The translations under genes were made by a program, and so were the position numbers. A stretch of DNA of 32,164 bases from a virus, in IMG/VR virus record IMGVR_UViG_3300034418_003171, positions 1-32,164 of that record; one strand, 5' to 3'. The first letter of the stretch is position 1, and every line of letters starts with the position of its first letter. Positions 18,456 through 31,591 of the stretch are shown here, piece by piece. Below the pieces are notes generated by a model. It was not told where the DNA came from. It saw nothing but the letters and a program-made list of their open reading frames with translations, and did not search any database.

Positions 18456-18646
18456 GGGGTTTTTCTCCCGTGCGCAATTTCAATGGCCTTGTTAATAATA
18501 TCAGTCATTCCAACTGGTATTGATCGCTGCAAATACTTGAGGTGATCTATTTCACCAGCTTCATATTGATCGTCAACTTGTCGCTGATGATCAATGAAAA
18601 GTTTGATTAATTCATCCTTCAAGTCAGCTGTGCTGGGTCTTTTCAC
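18452..18646 (-). CDS. Small protein, first gene of recombination operon
   Basis: A 64-residue helical protein, MKRPSTADLKDELIKLFIDH, from a GTG at 18646 with AAGGAG seven bases upstream. It lies directly behind the leftward promoter of the 18.65-18.70 kb switch. Overlaps the Gp157 gene by four bases. No family recognised. Confidence 0.55.
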   Translation of the reverse strand: MKRPSTADLKDELIKLFIDHQRQVDDQYEAGEIDHLKYLQRSIPVGMTDIINKAIEIAHGRKTP

Positions 18647-18650
18647 GTCA

Positions 18651-18703
18651 TTCTCCTTAAATTGCCTGTTTACTTATCTATCGAAAATGATAAATAATGT
18701 AAA
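18651..18703. promoter_or_regulatory. Overlapping opposed promoters with operator (genetic switch region)
   Basis: Leftward promoter: -35 TTTACA (18703-18698), 17-bp spacer, -10 TAGATA (18680-18675), leader GGCAATTTAAGGAGAA (18666-18651). Rightward promoter: -35 TTTACT (18669-18674), 18-bp spacer, -10 AATAAT (18693-18698). The -10 of each abuts or overlaps the -35 of the other, so polymerase cannot occupy both. Between them is the inverted repeat TTATC-N10-GATAA (18674-18693), a probable repressor site. Controls the recombination operon on the left and the Cro-like and initiator genes on the right. Confidence 0.6.
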
Positions 18704-18725
18704 GAAAAAAATAGAAGGATTAACA

Positions 18726-18917
18726 ATGGAAGAAAAAACTAGCGGTTACATATCTGTTGAAGAGGCACGAGAGCGCCTCAAAGATAGGCGACTTAAATAT
18801 GTAGCGGAAAGCATAGGCGTTACATACATGAGCCTCAGTAGATTGATGAGAGGCGAAGGTAATCCCTCATTTAAGCTGTTGAGCGGCTTGACGGATTATT
18901 TTAATGAGAGGCCATAA
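18726..18917 (+). CDS. Cro/CI-type HTH regulator
   Basis: A 63-residue protein from the ATG at 18726, with AAGGA upstream. After a short acidic start (MEEKTSGYISVEEARERLKD) it has a five-helix HTH_3-like core: LKYVAESIGVTYMSLSRLMR then NPSFKLLSGLTDYF. The single small domain is like Cro rather than full CI. It sits beside the opposed promoters at 18.67-18.70 kb and probably binds the inverted repeat there. No CI-like repressor or integrase is present in the window, so lysogeny cannot be inferred. Confidence 0.75.
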   Translation: MEEKTSGYISVEEARERLKDRRLKYVAESIGVTYMSLSRLMRGEGNPSFKLLSGLTDYFNERP

Positions 18918-18941
18918 AAAAAGACCCCCGCTCGGAGGGTC
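18916..18941 (-). terminator. Hairpin with leftward T-run after cro-like gene
   Basis: Stem GACCC / GGGTC (18923-18927 and 18937-18941) with an inner CC/GG pair and GCTC loop. On the - strand it is followed by seven T; on the + strand no T-run follows. It would therefore stop leftward antisense transcripts before they enter the cro-like gene, and only slow or shape the rightward mRNA. Confidence 0.45.
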
Positions 18942-18992
18942 CAGATATGAGGCAGTTCGAACAGTAGTAAAACTTAAAGAGGATTAAGTTTC

Positions 18993-19682
18993 ATGTCCCA
19001 TTATATGACCGCTCTTGCCATGAAGCAAGTAGGATTAAAGCCAGCAACGAAAATAGTTCTTTATTGGCTTTCTGATCATCATAACAGCGAAACAGGAGAA
19101 TGTTTCCCTAGCCATAAAAGATTAGCGGAGCTTTGCGAGATGACAGACCGCAGCGTTCGCAATCACCTTGAGGAGTTGCAAAATTTGGGCCTCATAAAGA
19201 TCGTAGAGAGAAAGCGCGATAATGGCTCACAGACTAGCAATAGCTACCTACTGCAACTTATGGATACTTATGGCGACAACCACCCTAGGAAAAATATTCC
19301 TACCCCCTTGGAAAATATTTCCGACCAGCCAAGGAAAAATATTCCTACCCTTAACCTTGGAAATAATAATCATGTAATTGAACCTAATAGGGCAAAATCA
19401 AAAAGAGCTACTTCTTTGCCAGATCAATGGGTTCCAAACCAAAAGAATATTGCAGATGCAATATCAAGAGATTTTACAGAAGAGGAAATAACACATGAAG
19501 CGGAACAGTTCAGAAATTATCACCTTTCCAAAGGATCAACTTTCAAATCATGGGATGCAGCATGGCGCACATGGCTTGGCAACGCTAGAAAGTTTTCCAA
19601 AGCATATAACGCCAGAACAGGCGGCAATGCTCAAACAATGCTGTCAGCATTTGGTAAACTCGCAAATAGATTGCAAGGATGA
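18993..19682 (+). CDS. Phage replication initiator, lambda O-like winged-helix protein
   Basis: A 229-residue protein with an N-terminal winged-helix domain (residues about 1-85: MKQVGLKPATKIVLYWLSDH, CFPSHKRLAELCEMTDRSVR, LGLIKIVERKR), as in phage initiators of the HTH_36 type. The middle (about residues 97-125) repeats PRKNIPT twice and is encoded by iteron DNA. The C-terminal part (FRNYHLSKGSTFKSWDAAWR, WLGNARKF) is the segment usual in such initiators for contact with the helicase loader. By analogy with lambda O it binds the iterons inside its own gene. The ATG follows AGAGGA by nine bases. Confidence 0.82.
   Translation: MSHYMTALAMKQVGLKPATKIVLYWLSDHHNSETGECFPSHKRLAELCEMTDRSVRNHLEELQNLGLIKIVERKRDNGSQTSNSYLLQLMDTYGDNHPRKNIPTPLENISDQPRKNIPTLNLGNNNHVIEPNRAKSKRATSLPDQWVPNQKNIADAISRDFTEEEITHEAEQFRNYHLSKGSTFKSWDAAWRTWLGNARKFSKAYNARTGGNAQTMLSAFGKLANRLQG
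19284..19371 (+). repeat. Iterons: candidate phage replication origin inside initiator gene
   Basis: Two perfect copies of the 19-mer AGGAAAAATATTCCTACCC (19287-19305 and 19332-19350), an intervening related copy TGGAAAATATTTCCGACC (19309-19326) and a degenerate fourth copy starting TGGAAATAATAA (19358). Starts are 22-26 bp apart, about two helical turns, and each full copy is itself an inverted repeat (GGAA...TTCC). AT-rich DNA follows (19358-19420), suited to strand opening. The same layout defines ori in lambda O. Confidence 0.72.
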
Positions 19683-28594: not shown

Positions 28595-28926
28595 TGAAAC
28601 TTACAAAAACTGATGCCGTTGATCTTTTCCAAGAGATAGGCCGAATATTTGAACGTGATTGGAATGAGCTATCAGGCATGGAGCTTTCAAAGTGGGATCA
28701 AGATTTGCTTATGGGGGTCGCCTGTTACAGTGCTTTATTCCTGAGAGGCGAATATAAAACGCTAGACTTGGCACAAGAGAAAGTTCTTCAACATATACGA
28801 GATCAGGCGACAAAGAACCCAAATTACAACAAGGTAAGAAAGCGCACCACCTTGGGCATCTACAAGCTATTCCGCGAACTAGAAAAGCAAATGGATGCGA
28901 CGATACCGAAAGATAAGGATTTGTGA
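28594..28926 (+). CDS. Unknown helical protein
   Basis: A 110-residue helical protein, MKLTKTDAVDLFQEIGRIFE, with LMGVACYSALFLRGEYKTLD and a basic end KRTTLGIYKLFRELEKQ. No family recognised. It overlaps the neighbours by one base each and may be an assembly factor or a non-structural gene carried on the late transcript. Confidence 0.5.
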   Translation: MKLTKTDAVDLFQEIGRIFERDWNELSGMELSKWDQDLLMGVACYSALFLRGEYKTLDLAQEKVLQHIRDQATKNPNYNKVRKRTTLGIYKLFRELEKQMDATIPKDKDL

Positions 28927-29195
28927 TGAGCCAGTACAGTGGAAGAGATTGGCCTTTTCCTTGGGAAACCCAAAAGCATTTTGTTCCAAAGGTAGACATC
29001 GCATCAAGGCTTGAGAGGGCGGCTTTGTTTTTGGGTGGCAGGGAAAATAAGCACTCTGAACTTTATACTTCGGCTGCGGACGAAATATATCGTTTACGTT
29101 TGCTATGTAATCAGAACAAGATTGATTATGGGGAAGTTCTGCCAAGGTGGGATGAATGGAATAACAGGCTTGAAAAGAAAAATCTTTTAGGATAG
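28926..29195 (+). CDS. Unknown small protein before terminator
   Basis: An 89-residue protein, MSQYSGRDWPFPWETQKHFV, with an alpha-helical middle (ASRLERAALFLGGRENKHSE, SAADEIYRLRLLC) and a charged end. ATG at 28926 overlaps the preceding stop by one base. It is the last gene before the strong terminator at 29.24-29.28 kb. Confidence 0.5.
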   Translation: MSQYSGRDWPFPWETQKHFVPKVDIASRLERAALFLGGRENKHSELYTSAADEIYRLRLLCNQNKIDYGEVLPRWDEWNNRLEKKNLLG

Positions 29196-29237
29196 TGTTT
29201 TCTTATCGTACATGTCTGAAGTTACTATATTGGTCGG

Positions 29238-29275
29238 AAAAGGGGGTAAGTGCTTGCGTACTCGCCCCCCTTTTT
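29238..29275. terminator. Bidirectional rho-independent terminator
   Basis: Stem AAAAGGGGG (29238-29246) pairs with CCCCC(C)TTTT (29265-29275), and the + strand continues TTTTTCTT. The same hairpin on the - strand ends CCCCCTTTT. It stops the rightward terminase-portal transcript and, in the other sense, the leftward GIY-YIG cassette. Confidence 0.85.
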
Positions 29276-29336
29276 CTTAATTGAATTGGTTTTGATCAAG
29301 AGAAATTAGCGCATAGCGTTTAATGTTATTTTATGG

Positions 29337-29416
29337 TATATTTAAGTTGCGATGTAGTTGAGTGCATCGTTCCTCCCTGTTAGACTGGGCCACGATTAAA
29401 CCCGTGGCCCATTTTT
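29337..29416 (+). ncRNA. Candidate phage small antisense RNA
   Basis: Isolated between two terminators. An extended -10 box TGG-TATATT at 29334-29342 (no good -35) would start an RNA near 29349. It has a 5' hairpin CGATG/CATCG (29350-29354 and 29365-29369), a single-stranded stretch GTTCCTCCCTGTTAGAC, and a perfect 9-bp terminator hairpin TGGGCCACG/CGTGGCCCA (29386-29411) followed by TTTTT (29412-29416). Positions 29365-29376 (CATCGTTCCTCC) are complementary, with a two-base bulge in the target, to GGAGGTAAACGATG, the ribosome-binding site and start codon of the leftward genes at 29852 and 30493. No protein frame fits. Predicted, not proven. Confidence 0.5.
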
Positions 29417-29578
29417 CAAGAAGTCCTTTATTTCCTCTTCGCTCCACCTGTTTCCAACGCCCATATAATGAGGCTGTGGTAGGCTTTTGTTCCTGACGCC
29501 CCCTAAGAAGTCGGTTATCGTTAAGCCCAGCATACGGGCCGCTTGGACGGCCTTGATGTACTTAGGGAACCTAGACAT
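29396..29578 (-). CDS. AlpA/excisionase-like small DNA-binding protein
   Basis: A 60-residue protein, MSRFPKYIKAVQAARMLGLT, with an HTH start, a wing-like QPHYMGVGNRW segment and a final helix EEEIKDFLKNG, as in AlpA or excisionase-type winged helices. Its stop codon lies in the terminator hairpin of the opposite-strand small RNA. Last gene of the leftward accessory cassette. Without an integrase in view, excision is not implied; it could be a regulator. Confidence 0.6.
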   Translation of the reverse strand: MSRFPKYIKAVQAARMLGLTITDFLGGVRNKSLPQPHYMGVGNRWSEEEIKDFLKNGPRV

Positions 29579-29852
29579 CCTGCTCTAACCGATCCTGTGC
29601 GCCTGATATAATTGCTTTTAGGGTATATCTGTCAGCACTGTCTAGTATTCCGTTAATGAGTTTAGTACAGTCTGTTCCCCGAAATTCTATCCATCCGGTT
29701 GGGGCAACATTATTGCTTATATCTATGGTAAAGACATCAGGGAGGTAGTCGCTATATTGCCTCTCAAGGCTGTACGCTCTGTTTTCACGCCCATGAAAAG
29801 AAATTCTTTTTTTTGCGATAAAGTTCGGGTCGCACGTTATAATTTCAATCAT
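29571..29852 (-). CDS. Unknown small protein
   Basis: A 93-residue protein, MIEIITCDPNFIAKKRISFH, with a central DVFTIDISNNVAPTGWIEFR strand pair and a helical end. No family recognised. Its ribosome-binding context GGAGGTAAACGATGA is identical over 15 bases to that of the GIY-YIG gene, and both are possible targets of the opposite-strand small RNA. Overlaps the next gene by eight bases. Confidence 0.5.
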   Translation of the reverse strand: MIEIITCDPNFIAKKRISFHGRENRAYSLERQYSDYLPDVFTIDISNNVAPTGWIEFRGTDCTKLINGILDSADRYTLKAIISGAQDRLEQDV

Positions 29853-29893
29853 CGTTTACCTCCAAAGTTTTAAGATATTGTATTGGTTTAAGC

Positions 29894-30493
29894 CTAGCAG
29901 AACCCGACATGATTACCTCCGTAATAATCAAAGTAATCATCTCCACAAATGACGTCAGCATTTATCAAGTCTACAAAATTATAAACCTCTGTAAAAACTG
30001 GTTTGTTTTTCTTCAATCTGTTTTTTCTCACTACTTGTTTATTAAATATTGGTCGCATCTTTGCAATCGCTAACGCTTCTACATCTCTTGCCTCTTCATA
30101 TGTTTGGAAATATGATGTCATAATAAAATCAACTGAGTACCACCATGATTTATCATTTCGGTGCTGTCTTATTCGACTGCGAAGATTGTAAGTACAGCCA
30201 ATGTAAAGGGGTATTACTCTCTTGTTTGGGCTATTCCCCTCTTTGTCGGCGTCTGGTAAAGAGCCAAGCAAGTAAACAGAATAGTGTTTTTTGAATGTTT
30301 TATGAGAACGATCCCTGCCCTCTGGCAAGCACTCAAAATGGTTCCAGATAAAGGCATTAGCAAATTGTTCATCTGAGGCCGCAGTTAATGGTTTGTCTTT
30401 CGGAAATGACATGGAATAGTTAAGACCATGGTTCCAATAATACATAGTCTCAGGGGGCGTTCTGGTCCATTTCTTTAGAGAAAGTTTAGTCAT
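29894..30493 (-). CDS. GIY-YIG endonuclease
   Basis: A 199-residue protein with a GIY-YIG nuclease domain at residues about 70-155: HYSVYLLGSL (GIY strand), VIPLYIGCTYNLRSRIRQHR with the YIG strand and R105, then SYFQTYEEARDVEALAIAKM with the metal-binding glutamate near E139, and RPIFNKQ. The N-terminal 70 residues and the last 45 are unassigned and could give DNA or partner specificity. Likely a free-standing homing or anti-host nuclease; the position inside an accessory cassette in the head region fits a homing element. Good GGAGG before the ATG. Confidence 0.82.
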   Translation of the reverse strand: MTKLSLKKWTRTPPETMYYWNHGLNYSMSFPKDKPLTAASDEQFANAFIWNHFECLPEGRDRSHKTFKKHYSVYLLGSLPDADKEGNSPNKRVIPLYIGCTYNLRSRIRQHRNDKSWWYSVDFIMTSYFQTYEEARDVEALAIAKMRPIFNKQVVRKNRLKKNKPVFTEVYNFVDLINADVICGDDYFDYYGGNHVGFC

Positions 30494-30656
30494 CGTTTAC
30501 CTCCGAGGGGTCCATATACTCCTCTGCTATAACGAAGTCTTTTATTTCATCTTCGCTCAAGTAAACGCAAAAGCTGCGTATTACCTGTTCAAGATTATAA
30601 TATCCTTGGTCAACCCGATCCAAGAATTTGTTAGTAACTTTGCGAGTGTATTCCAT
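30486..30656 (-). CDS. 56-residue small acidic protein
   Basis: A short frame MEYTRKVTNKFLDRVDQGYY then NLEQVIRSFCVYLSEDEIKD and an acidic end (AEEYMDPSEVNDD). It fills the gap between the promoter-proximal gene and the GIY-YIG gene, overlapping the latter by eight bases and carrying its GGAGG site. AGGG precedes its ATG. Function unknown; a small acidic helical protein is typical of phage inhibitors, but this is only a resemblance. Confidence 0.5.
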   Translation of the reverse strand: MEYTRKVTNKFLDRVDQGYYNLEQVIRSFCVYLSEDEIKDFVIAEEYMDPSEVNDD

Positions 30657-30660
30657 TCGA

Positions 30661-30912
30661 TTAACCCTTTGCTGCTTTGTCGATGCCGAATGCTAAGTTG
30701 ATGCCGTATGTTGCGCAATTGTGCATGCGTCTTGCGAGTGCGCTATGACTGCTTGCTGGATTTACCTTTGCAGCTTTTTCAGAACGAGCAGCTTGGTCAA
30801 TAAAATATTGAATGGCTTTTGAGCCATCGTTATCAAGCTCGCGCATTTTAGCGTTGAAGATTTTTTTGGCTGTTTCCCATTTTGTAGGAAATTTTGGGTA
30901 GATGCTTGTCAT
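30661..30912 (-). CDS. Unknown small protein, first gene of leftward cassette
   Basis: An 83-residue protein, MTSIYPKFPTKWETAKKIFN, mostly helical (KAIQYFIDQAARSEKAAKVN; LARRMHNCATYGINLAF). No family recognised. It has AAGGAG upstream and lies directly behind promoter P3. Confidence 0.55.
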   Translation of the reverse strand: MTSIYPKFPTKWETAKKIFNAKMRELDNDGSKAIQYFIDQAARSEKAAKVNPASSHSALARRMHNCATYGINLAFGIDKAAKG

Positions 30913-30918
30913 TTCGTT

Positions 30919-31052
30919 TTCTCCTTATTGCCTATGTAACTTATATAGCATCTGTGGATATTGCTGTCAACGCAAAAAGTTAAAATAATTAACAAAAAAG
31001 TTATTGACATCAACAAATTTTGTGGATAAGTTGTATGCAAGGCAAAGGAGAA
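30919..31052. promoter_or_regulatory. Divergent promoters P3/P4 around a palindrome, with DnaA boxes
   Basis: Central palindrome GTTAAAATAATTAAC (30979-30993). Leftward P3: eight bases, -35 TTGACA (30970-30965), 17-bp spacer containing TATCCACA (30960-30953), -10 TATATA (30947-30942), leader GGCAATAAGGAGAA (30932-30919). Rightward P4: ten bases, -35 TTGACA (31004-31009), 17-bp spacer containing the start of TGTGGATAA (31021-31029, a perfect DnaA box on the - strand), -10 TAAGTT (31027-31032), leader GGCAAAGGAGAA (31041-31052). P3 drives the GIY-YIG cassette; P4 drives the small genes to the right. Confidence 0.7.
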
Positions 31053-31057
31053 AGCAC

Positions 31058-31399
31058 ATGAGATACGATCTTTACCAAATCAAAGCAGCTACAGCGACAC
31101 CCGCAGCGGACAAGGCCAAAATCGACATGATGATGGATTTCAGCGACAACAAGATAGGCGGTATAGCGCGGGATGCTTGGGACAAATTCTTTTATACTAG
31201 AGTGGCAACACTTGATGCGAAAGATTACAACGATGCTTTCGAGGTCGGGAATATTGGACCAGAAGAAAAGATTACTCGCTATGCTGCACTTTCATCAGCA
31301 TCAGTCGGAGACATACTTATCGCAGAGGATGGCACCATCGCAGTAATAGCAAATATCGGATTTATCCAAATCGGATACAGCGCAGTACACGCAGCATAA
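31058..31399 (+). CDS. Unknown small protein, first gene after P4
   Basis: A 113-residue protein from the ATG at 31058 (MRYDLYQIKAATATPAADKA); AAAGGAG lies six bases upstream. An in-frame TTG at 31004 is the -35 box of P4, not a start. The sequence has a helical first half (KAKIDMMMDFSDNKIGG) and beta-like second half (VGDILIAEDGTIAVIANIGF), the latter resembling a small OB- or SH3-like barrel. No family recognised. Confidence 0.55.
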   Translation: MRYDLYQIKAATATPAADKAKIDMMMDFSDNKIGGIARDAWDKFFYTRVATLDAKDYNDAFEVGNIGPEEKITRYAALSSASVGDILIAEDGTIAVIANIGFIQIGYSAVHAA

Positions 31400-31411
31400 G
31401 GGGGAATGAAA

Positions 31412-31591
31412 ATGGTAAGAGAGGGACAAGTTATAGATGCGATTGATCACATCTTAGAGACAATGGATCGCAGAGGTTGGGACAAGCTGTCCGAGAAAAG
31501 CAAGAAGTCTTACGAGGCTTTATGGGCTTTACGCGAGGGGCTTGAGGGCAACCCAGATGATGGTACAAAGATGATCTTTTATATACCGTAA
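31412..31591 (+). CDS. Unknown small acidic helical protein
   Basis: A 59-residue protein from the ATG at 31412 (MVREGQVIDAIDHILETMDR), chosen because GGGGG is better spaced for it than for the ATG two codons earlier. Two charged helices and an extended end (DDGTKMIFYIP). No family recognised. Third-party role unclear; it is part of the P4 operon. Confidence 0.5.
   Translation: MVREGQVIDAIDHILETMDRRGWDKLSEKSKKSYEALWALREGLEGNPDDGTKMIFYIP

Follow-up and report, generated by a model that had tools for sequence, protein, structure and literature searches.

Positions 29349–29416 (+ strand) of the analysed window, a stretch of 32 164 nucleotides from an IMG/VR contig of a tailed phage (record IMGVR_UViG_3300034418_003171), probably constitute a small-RNA gene that the phage carries and that belongs to the SorX/SorY/suhB (alpha-r8) superfamily; its product would be a self-transcribed, trans-acting RNA of ∼68 nt with a terminator that also insulates. 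The assignment of this predicted RNA to the SorX/alpha-r8 type is well supported at the level of sequence (covariance model and Rfam SorX), as are the architecture of the element, its conservation in syntenic position and its spread among phages and Rhodobacterales. The result points to viral use of a copied host RNA regulator instead of a switch dedicated to two neighbouring genes.

Two rightward terminators lie in the gap between the head genes, which run rightward and end at 29195, and a block of small leftward genes (29396–30912). The same region is spanned by a near-identical 48 kb contig, in which, as in four other contigs of its group, no tyrosine integrase was found. The separate terminator of the head-gene operon (29237–29275, +) was read from the sequence as a bipartite G/C hairpin (GGGGG..AGTGC..GTACT..CCCCC) followed by TTTTT; it was missed by a simple hairpin scan and ends ∼110 bases upstream of the second one, as the preliminary description of this DNA had stated. 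The preceding rightward gene, a phage ORF of ∼90 amino acids, is closed by this terminator, which would isolate the small RNA from upstream transcription. Sequence reading and the hairpin scan placed an extended −10 element, a predicted start at G29349, a hairpin and the linker UUCCUCCCUGUUAGAC between the two terminators. The extended −10 element TGGTATATT (TG-G-TATATT; 29334–29342, +, with the TG at 29334–29335 and the hexamer at 29337–29342) gives the RNA a putative promoter of its own, and no convincing −35 element was seen 5′ of it. In three syntenic phage lineages (TGGTATATT, TGATATCAT and TGGTATACT) this element matches TGN-TATAAT at seven of eight positions and lies 4–6 nt 5′ of the hairpin, while even six of eight matches were reached in only 2% of shuffled sequences. 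The 5′ hairpin (29349–29370, +) has an 8 bp stem, GCGATGTA/TGCATCGT, and the loop GTTGAG, folds to −9.3 kcal mol−1 alone and differs among relatives. It is followed by the conserved core GTTCCTCCCTGTTAGACT (29369–29386, +), an anti-Shine–Dalgarno seed which, from the fold and the alignments, is unpaired except at the edges of the hairpin and the terminator. The RNA ends in the intrinsic terminator TGGGCCACG-ATTAAACC-CGTGGCCCA plus TTTTT (29386–29416, +; hairpin scan and fold), the stem of which (29386–29394/29403–29411) has nine pairs, seven of them G–C. Positions 29347–29416 (70 nt) fold to −28.1 kcal mol−1 (z = −5.67 against 200 shuffles); the fold consists of two hairpins joined by the unpaired linker.

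The high-quality terminator, the extended −10 element and the 5′ hairpin of the preliminary description were thus all recovered, and every position that it gives checked out. Its statement that the region lacks a protein frame needs one qualification: the interval is not wholly noncoding on the other strand, because the 3′ half of the terminator overlaps the last codons of a leftward 60-residue ORF (29396–29578, −). This ORF appears helix–turn–helix-like by eye, gave no PHROG or Pfam match and has homologues near the element in the relatives L137, L141 and L102. No tRNA genes were found in the window, and no match to Rfam at gathering thresholds was obtained anywhere in it.

A second candidate RNA in the window, likely an OOP-like antisense RNA, was noted at 18916–18996 (−). 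It has a TTGCTT-N17-TATAAT promoter, a 10 bp 5′ hairpin, a linker with the palindromic CUGUUCGAACUG and a terminator followed by T7 (fold z = −2.6), and gave no Rfam match. It extends leftward, from where an O-like replication gene starts (18993–19682) to where a transcriptional-regulator gene ends (18594–18917), which is the position of OOP in phage lambda.

Relatives of the window phage were found by portal-protein similarity (72–83% identity: L137, 73%; L141/L102, 83%; L109/L131/L132, 72–74%). Five viral contigs with the cassette were uninformative because they are 100% identical to the window. In the equivalent position, where the leftward block has its 3′ end or close to it, L137 carries TATGATATCATGTTAGT-GAAGGTTCATTCCTTC-TTACCTCCCTGTTGACTG-GCCCCCTGTTTATCAGGGGGTC-TTTT and L141/L102 carry TGGTATACTAGGAGCGCATG...-CTCCCTGTTGGACTG-ACCCCTCAGATTACTGGGGGGTC-TTTT. 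Compared with the window, both hairpins have diverged in sequence yet are still hairpins, and the linker and the extended −10 element are kept; the terminator stem varies between relatives as the 5′ arm does (CCTTCTTACCTCCC in L137 and GTGTCCAAATCTCCC in L141), so that the CATCGTT-containing hairpin of the window is not retained. The more diverged L109, L131 and L132 have, in the interval from the portal gene to leftward ORFs, CTTCCTCCCTGACTG (or CTAACTG) followed by a terminator, a weaker version that scored 26.2–24.1 bits with the covariance model described below, to whose training set these sequences do not belong. The element is absent from relatives such as L105 and L163 and is therefore accessory; judged from these alignments it is nevertheless clearly maintained. 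Weak covariance-model matches of 11–18 bits were also seen 5′ of the portal gene in L105 (4266–4355), L106 (1036–1099), L121 (1496–1559), L125 (919–983) and L138 (920–984); they comprise a hairpin, a CCUC-containing linker and a G/C terminator and are possibly a second type of small RNA or terminator in these marine phages.

This pattern of conservation bears on the view that the element is mainly a terminator or insulator, its core being a leftover of a captured host sRNA terminator module that plays no role in trans. Such a view fits its location between converging operons, the fact that one rightward terminator already precedes it in the window and the plain hairpin terminator that L105 has at the corresponding spot. 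An insulator would need neither the invariant CCUCCCUGUURGACUG linker nor the 5′ hairpin, yet both are kept while the stems diverge; moreover, a promoter lies directly 5′ of the hairpin and the head operon is already ended by another terminator. We consider this explanation unlikely.

The invariant linker is also the core of an Alphaproteobacterial sRNA superfamily, and its 14–16 nt are common to more than 100 distinct host and phage elements. SorX (RF02784) matched the window RNA over the full length (1–73) with 24.1 bits (E = 4.6e-4; gathering cutoff 46.6), SorY (RF02651) with 22.5 bits (E = 7.7e-3; cutoff 111) and suhB/mmgR (alpha-r8, RF00519) with 17.9 bits (E = 0.1; cutoff 41) in a scan of the short region, the suhB match not being reported in the scan of the whole record; every one of these scores is below the curated cutoff. 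The SorX-type core CUCCCUGUUGGAC is present as CUCCCUGUUAGAC (one G>A change) at 29373–29385, unpaired in the fold between the 5′ hairpin and the terminator. Nine of the ten positions of the alpha-r8 10-mer UUUCCUCCCU (PMC12559287) are matched by GUUCCUCCCU at 29369–29378 (+), the 5′-most two letters of which lie within the end of the hairpin in the fold, and a Rho-independent terminator, as in alpha-r8, is present at the 3′ end. A covariance model, R1, built from 24 host and phage sequences found 29346–29417 as its sole match in 32 kb (47.9 bits, E = 8.6e-13), a score that is not independent because the window is one of the training rows. Together with the full-length SorX match and the architecture kept in syntenic relatives, this bears out the earlier proposal of a small-RNA gene.

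The pattern CTCCCTGTT(N)GACTGNNCC..TTTT was found in 28 viral contigs that form at least eight distinct sequence groups; about four such contigs are expected by chance from our own estimate of the collection size, and L174 and L178 look like chance matches. The core followed by a terminator occurs in at least 116 bacterial genome contigs, and among the matches listed nearly all are Rhodobacterales (by title) or an unplaced alphaproteobacterium; in most of the 121 distinct sequences among the matches listed, the core is invariant and lies between a 5′ hairpin and a terminator that both vary. With a slightly wider pattern the element was present in 52 of 61 genomes sampled from the one family Rhodobacteraceae, and the reversed pattern used as a control gave none. 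Hairpin arms of unequal length were misaligned by MAFFT, which left RNAalifold with a poor consensus, and stems were therefore scored per sequence: directly 5′ of the core the mean score was 9.0 for host copies (n = 123) and 7.9 for phage copies (n = 14), compared with 4.4 in shuffles, and equivalent 5′ hairpins of unrelated sequence are found in L137, L141 and host copies. Host copies exceeded the SorX cutoff at seven of 11 loci tested (47–81 bits). Nine of 12 other phage records matched SorX (E = 1.5e-10 to 1.8e-3) below the cutoff, phage copies scoring 17.3–38.8 bits. Two host copies ∼110–1500 nt apart, with different 5′ hairpins and the same core, were observed in L239, L271, L300, L220, L193 and L189, which indicates that in Rhodobacterales and relatives the sRNA has been duplicated locally. 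A distinct version with a CGTCTCCCAGACGTGAAGCCTCCCTGTTRGACTG-like sequence, a terminator and two CUCCC stretches was seen in L195, L217, L263 and L274; it is probably a separate sRNA lineage outside Rhodobacterales, since L195 is from Defluviicoccus and L263 from Elioraea.

Cultured phages also carry the element. Rhodobacter capsulatus phage RcZahn has TGTGCC-AATCTA-GGCGCA-TACCTCCCTGTTGGACTG and a terminator at 59601–59673, in the unannotated gap that follows gene 66, a copy that scored 41.3 bits with the covariance model, of which it too is a training row. The roseophages CRP-811, CRP-823 and CRP-831 share CTCTTCCTCCCCAAGACTTG and a terminator (20.6–20.7 bits with the same model). These unannotated alpha-r8-like elements (L310 6825–6897, L311 5611–5682 and L312 6294–6365, respectively) are flanked by the genes of the helicase/primase and the ssDNA-binding protein but run on the other strand, and those of CRP-811 and CRP-823 gave sub-threshold suhB scores of 27–28 bits. 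Second, weaker copies (17–24 bits) were observed in carrier phages: RcZahn at 42667–42745, G072 at 57860–57926 and G077 at 40560–40621. A match in a Loktanella phage was rejected as a plain terminator without the core. The terminase of the window phage is 49% identical to that of Roseobacter phage CRP-6, and its tail protein has its best match in CRP roseophages; since the phage is related to phages of that host group, its host is probably a member of the Rhodobacteraceae. A nucleotide search of 28800–31500 against named phages, near and distant, gave no match, and a portal-protein search of bacterial genomes found no prophage relatives.

SorX of Rhodobacter sphaeroides and other Rhodobacterales has a similar layout and core (ACCUCCCUGUUGGAC-terminator, compared with UUCCUCCCUGUUAGAC-terminator in the window). 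It differs in that its 5′ hairpin is unrelated and that it arises by processing of an ompR-type transcript, in whose 3′ UTR it lies (PMC9438474), whereas the phage RNA has a predicted promoter of its own; SorX is Hfq-dependent and represses potA (PMC9438474). SorY likewise has the core CCUCCCUGUUGGACUU and a GGCCGAGC terminator and is its own transcription unit (PMC8307010), but has a longer 5′ hairpin. The alpha-r8 RNAs (suhB/MmgR/SisA–D, RF00519) share a weak 5′ hairpin and a Rho-independent terminator with the window RNA, and their single-stranded 10-mer UUUCCUCCCU resembles its GUUCCUCCCU; unlike them, the window RNA is phage-borne, does not adjoin an N-formylglutamate amidohydrolase gene and has UGUUAGACU following the 10-mer, in common with SorX. 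In Caulobacter, SisA–D pair through UUUCCUCCCU, SisA doing so with Hfq, and are titrated by the sponge CrfA (PMC12559287); in Sinorhizobium, MmgR contains the motif, a direct target not being proven (PMC7143759). These relatives are Hfq-associated and carry an anti-Shine–Dalgarno stretch (PMC12559287, PMC7143759, PMC9438474).

From these comparisons we infer the transcription, Hfq dependence, targets and effect or benefit of the window RNA. Rightward transcription from its own extended −10 element would yield an RNA of ∼68 nt with a 5′ hairpin, an unpaired core and a Rho-independent terminator, which, by analogy with its characterized relatives, probably depends on Hfq of the host and would act in trans. 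Its CCUCCC core would pair with the Shine–Dalgarno regions of mRNAs, most likely start regions of the Rhodobacterales host rather than of the phage, so that translation would be blocked and decay promoted during infection; the terminator would also help to shield the head-gene operon from the leftward cassette that faces it. Because the layout is the same as in the relatives and the seed GUUCCUCCCU nearly so, the RNA would by default be expected to act in trans on host mRNAs of the infected cell, as a repressor or a competitor.

It is rather improbable that the RNA is primarily a decoy or sponge that relieves host repression by drawing Hfq, shared target sites or a CrfA-type sponge away from the SorX/alpha-r8 sRNAs of the host. 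To our knowledge, the phage anti-sRNAs AsxR and AgvB are unrelated in sequence to the window RNA. They are known in E. coli (as cited in PMC12559287) and are likewise small Hfq-type RNAs on phages, unlike the window RNA in being enterobacterial (reviewed in PMC12197685; this review of phage sRNAs makes no mention of Rhodobacter, Roseobacter or Alphaproteobacteria). A copy that shares the seed would compete by design, and in Caulobacter the alpha-r8 10-mer is the very site titrated by CrfA (PMC12559287), but seed mimicry is equally expected from a plain repressor.

The preliminary description had instead proposed a dedicated antisense RNA that silences two genes of the adjacent leftward cassette, those of a 93-residue protein (29571–29852, −) and a GIY-YIG endonuclease (29894–30493, −; PF01541, E = 1.8e-5), through CATCGTT/CCTCC. 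The shared 12-mer is as described: CATCGTTCCTCC occurs at 29365–29376 and TA-interrupted copies, CATCGTTTACCTCC, at 29850–29863 and 30491–30504, the gapped pattern occurring three times in the window where 0.01 would be expected. Both start regions carry GGAGGTAAACGATG as ribosome-binding site and ATG, 5 + 7 pairs are possible and the raw hybrid energies are −21.3 and −18.1 kcal mol−1. CCUCCC did not arise to match these genes, however, because it is part of the core found in the whole family, and CATCG forms the 3′ arm of the hairpin at the 5′ end, where it is paired and would have to be freed. Once opening costs were counted, the GIY-YIG start ranked third (−8.1 kcal mol−1) and the 93-residue protein start seventh (−5.2 kcal mol−1) of 43 hand-chosen phage gene starts, as estimated simply from RNAduplex plus accessibility rather than with IntaRNA; corrected pairing with the phage's own genes is weak throughout (best −8.5 kcal mol−1). 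The situation that the preliminary description itself had named as refuting its model is the one seen in relatives: L137 and L141 keep the RNA with a changed 5′ arm, the L137 orthologue of the 93-residue protein gene has the start region GGGTGGAAGGCCAAGATG without a complementary ribosome-binding site, no homologue of this gene was detected in L141 and no GIY-YIG homologue was found in either. By these comparisons the RNA appears to outlive its supposed targets. Nor is the 12-mer itself a conserved unit, since a terminator follows it only in near-identical contigs (with one coding-like exception); most of the 87 matches to the hairpin-plus-12-mer pattern resemble unrelated coding sequence. Silencing of the cassette as the dedicated function is accordingly very unlikely. 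The upstream 7-mer match, chosen after the fact, has a probability of ∼0.0007 per random 7-mer as a single event, and because it is improbable on its own a weak side-regulation of the two genes in the window phage is possible.

Hardly credible is the notion that the core really serves a small ORF on the − strand (GGGAGGAACG-ATG) as its Shine–Dalgarno sequence. An ATG does follow GGGAGG, the complement, both in L109 (8922) and in the window, but the ORF has 13 codons in the window, is similarly short by reading in L137 and L141 and reaches 49 codons in L109, and terminator polarity, promoter and SorX match are all on the + strand. The 49-residue ORF behind the complement of the core in L109 (8773–8922, −) resembles a small membrane protein, and a two-strand use of the element is possible there.

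SorX/alpha-r8 RNAs are already known in bacteria, and phage sRNAs in enterobacteria. In the open literature searched, which excludes most subscription journals, no phage-borne member of the SorX/alpha-r8 group was found; the core string matched only unrelated human-cell work, and a search for roseophage sRNAs returned only unrelated Vibrio phage work. We tentatively propose, as a possibility short of an even chance, that several unrelated phages of Rhodobacterales, cultured ones included, took up the host's anti-Shine–Dalgarno sRNA of the SorX/alpha-r8 type under promoters of their own and thereby, in infected cells, commandeer or jam the Hfq–sRNA network of the host, which would be an undescribed form of viral mimicry of a core host riboregulator. 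The SorX/alpha-r8 reading accounts for the finding without a bespoke cassette switch. Post-transcriptional control by phages is little explored outside enterobacteria, and roseobacters rank among the most abundant bacteria of the sea; a recognizable, unannotated class of small RNAs with a copy in RcZahn and alpha-r8-like candidates in cultured roseophages would make the borrowing of host riboregulators by phages directly testable.
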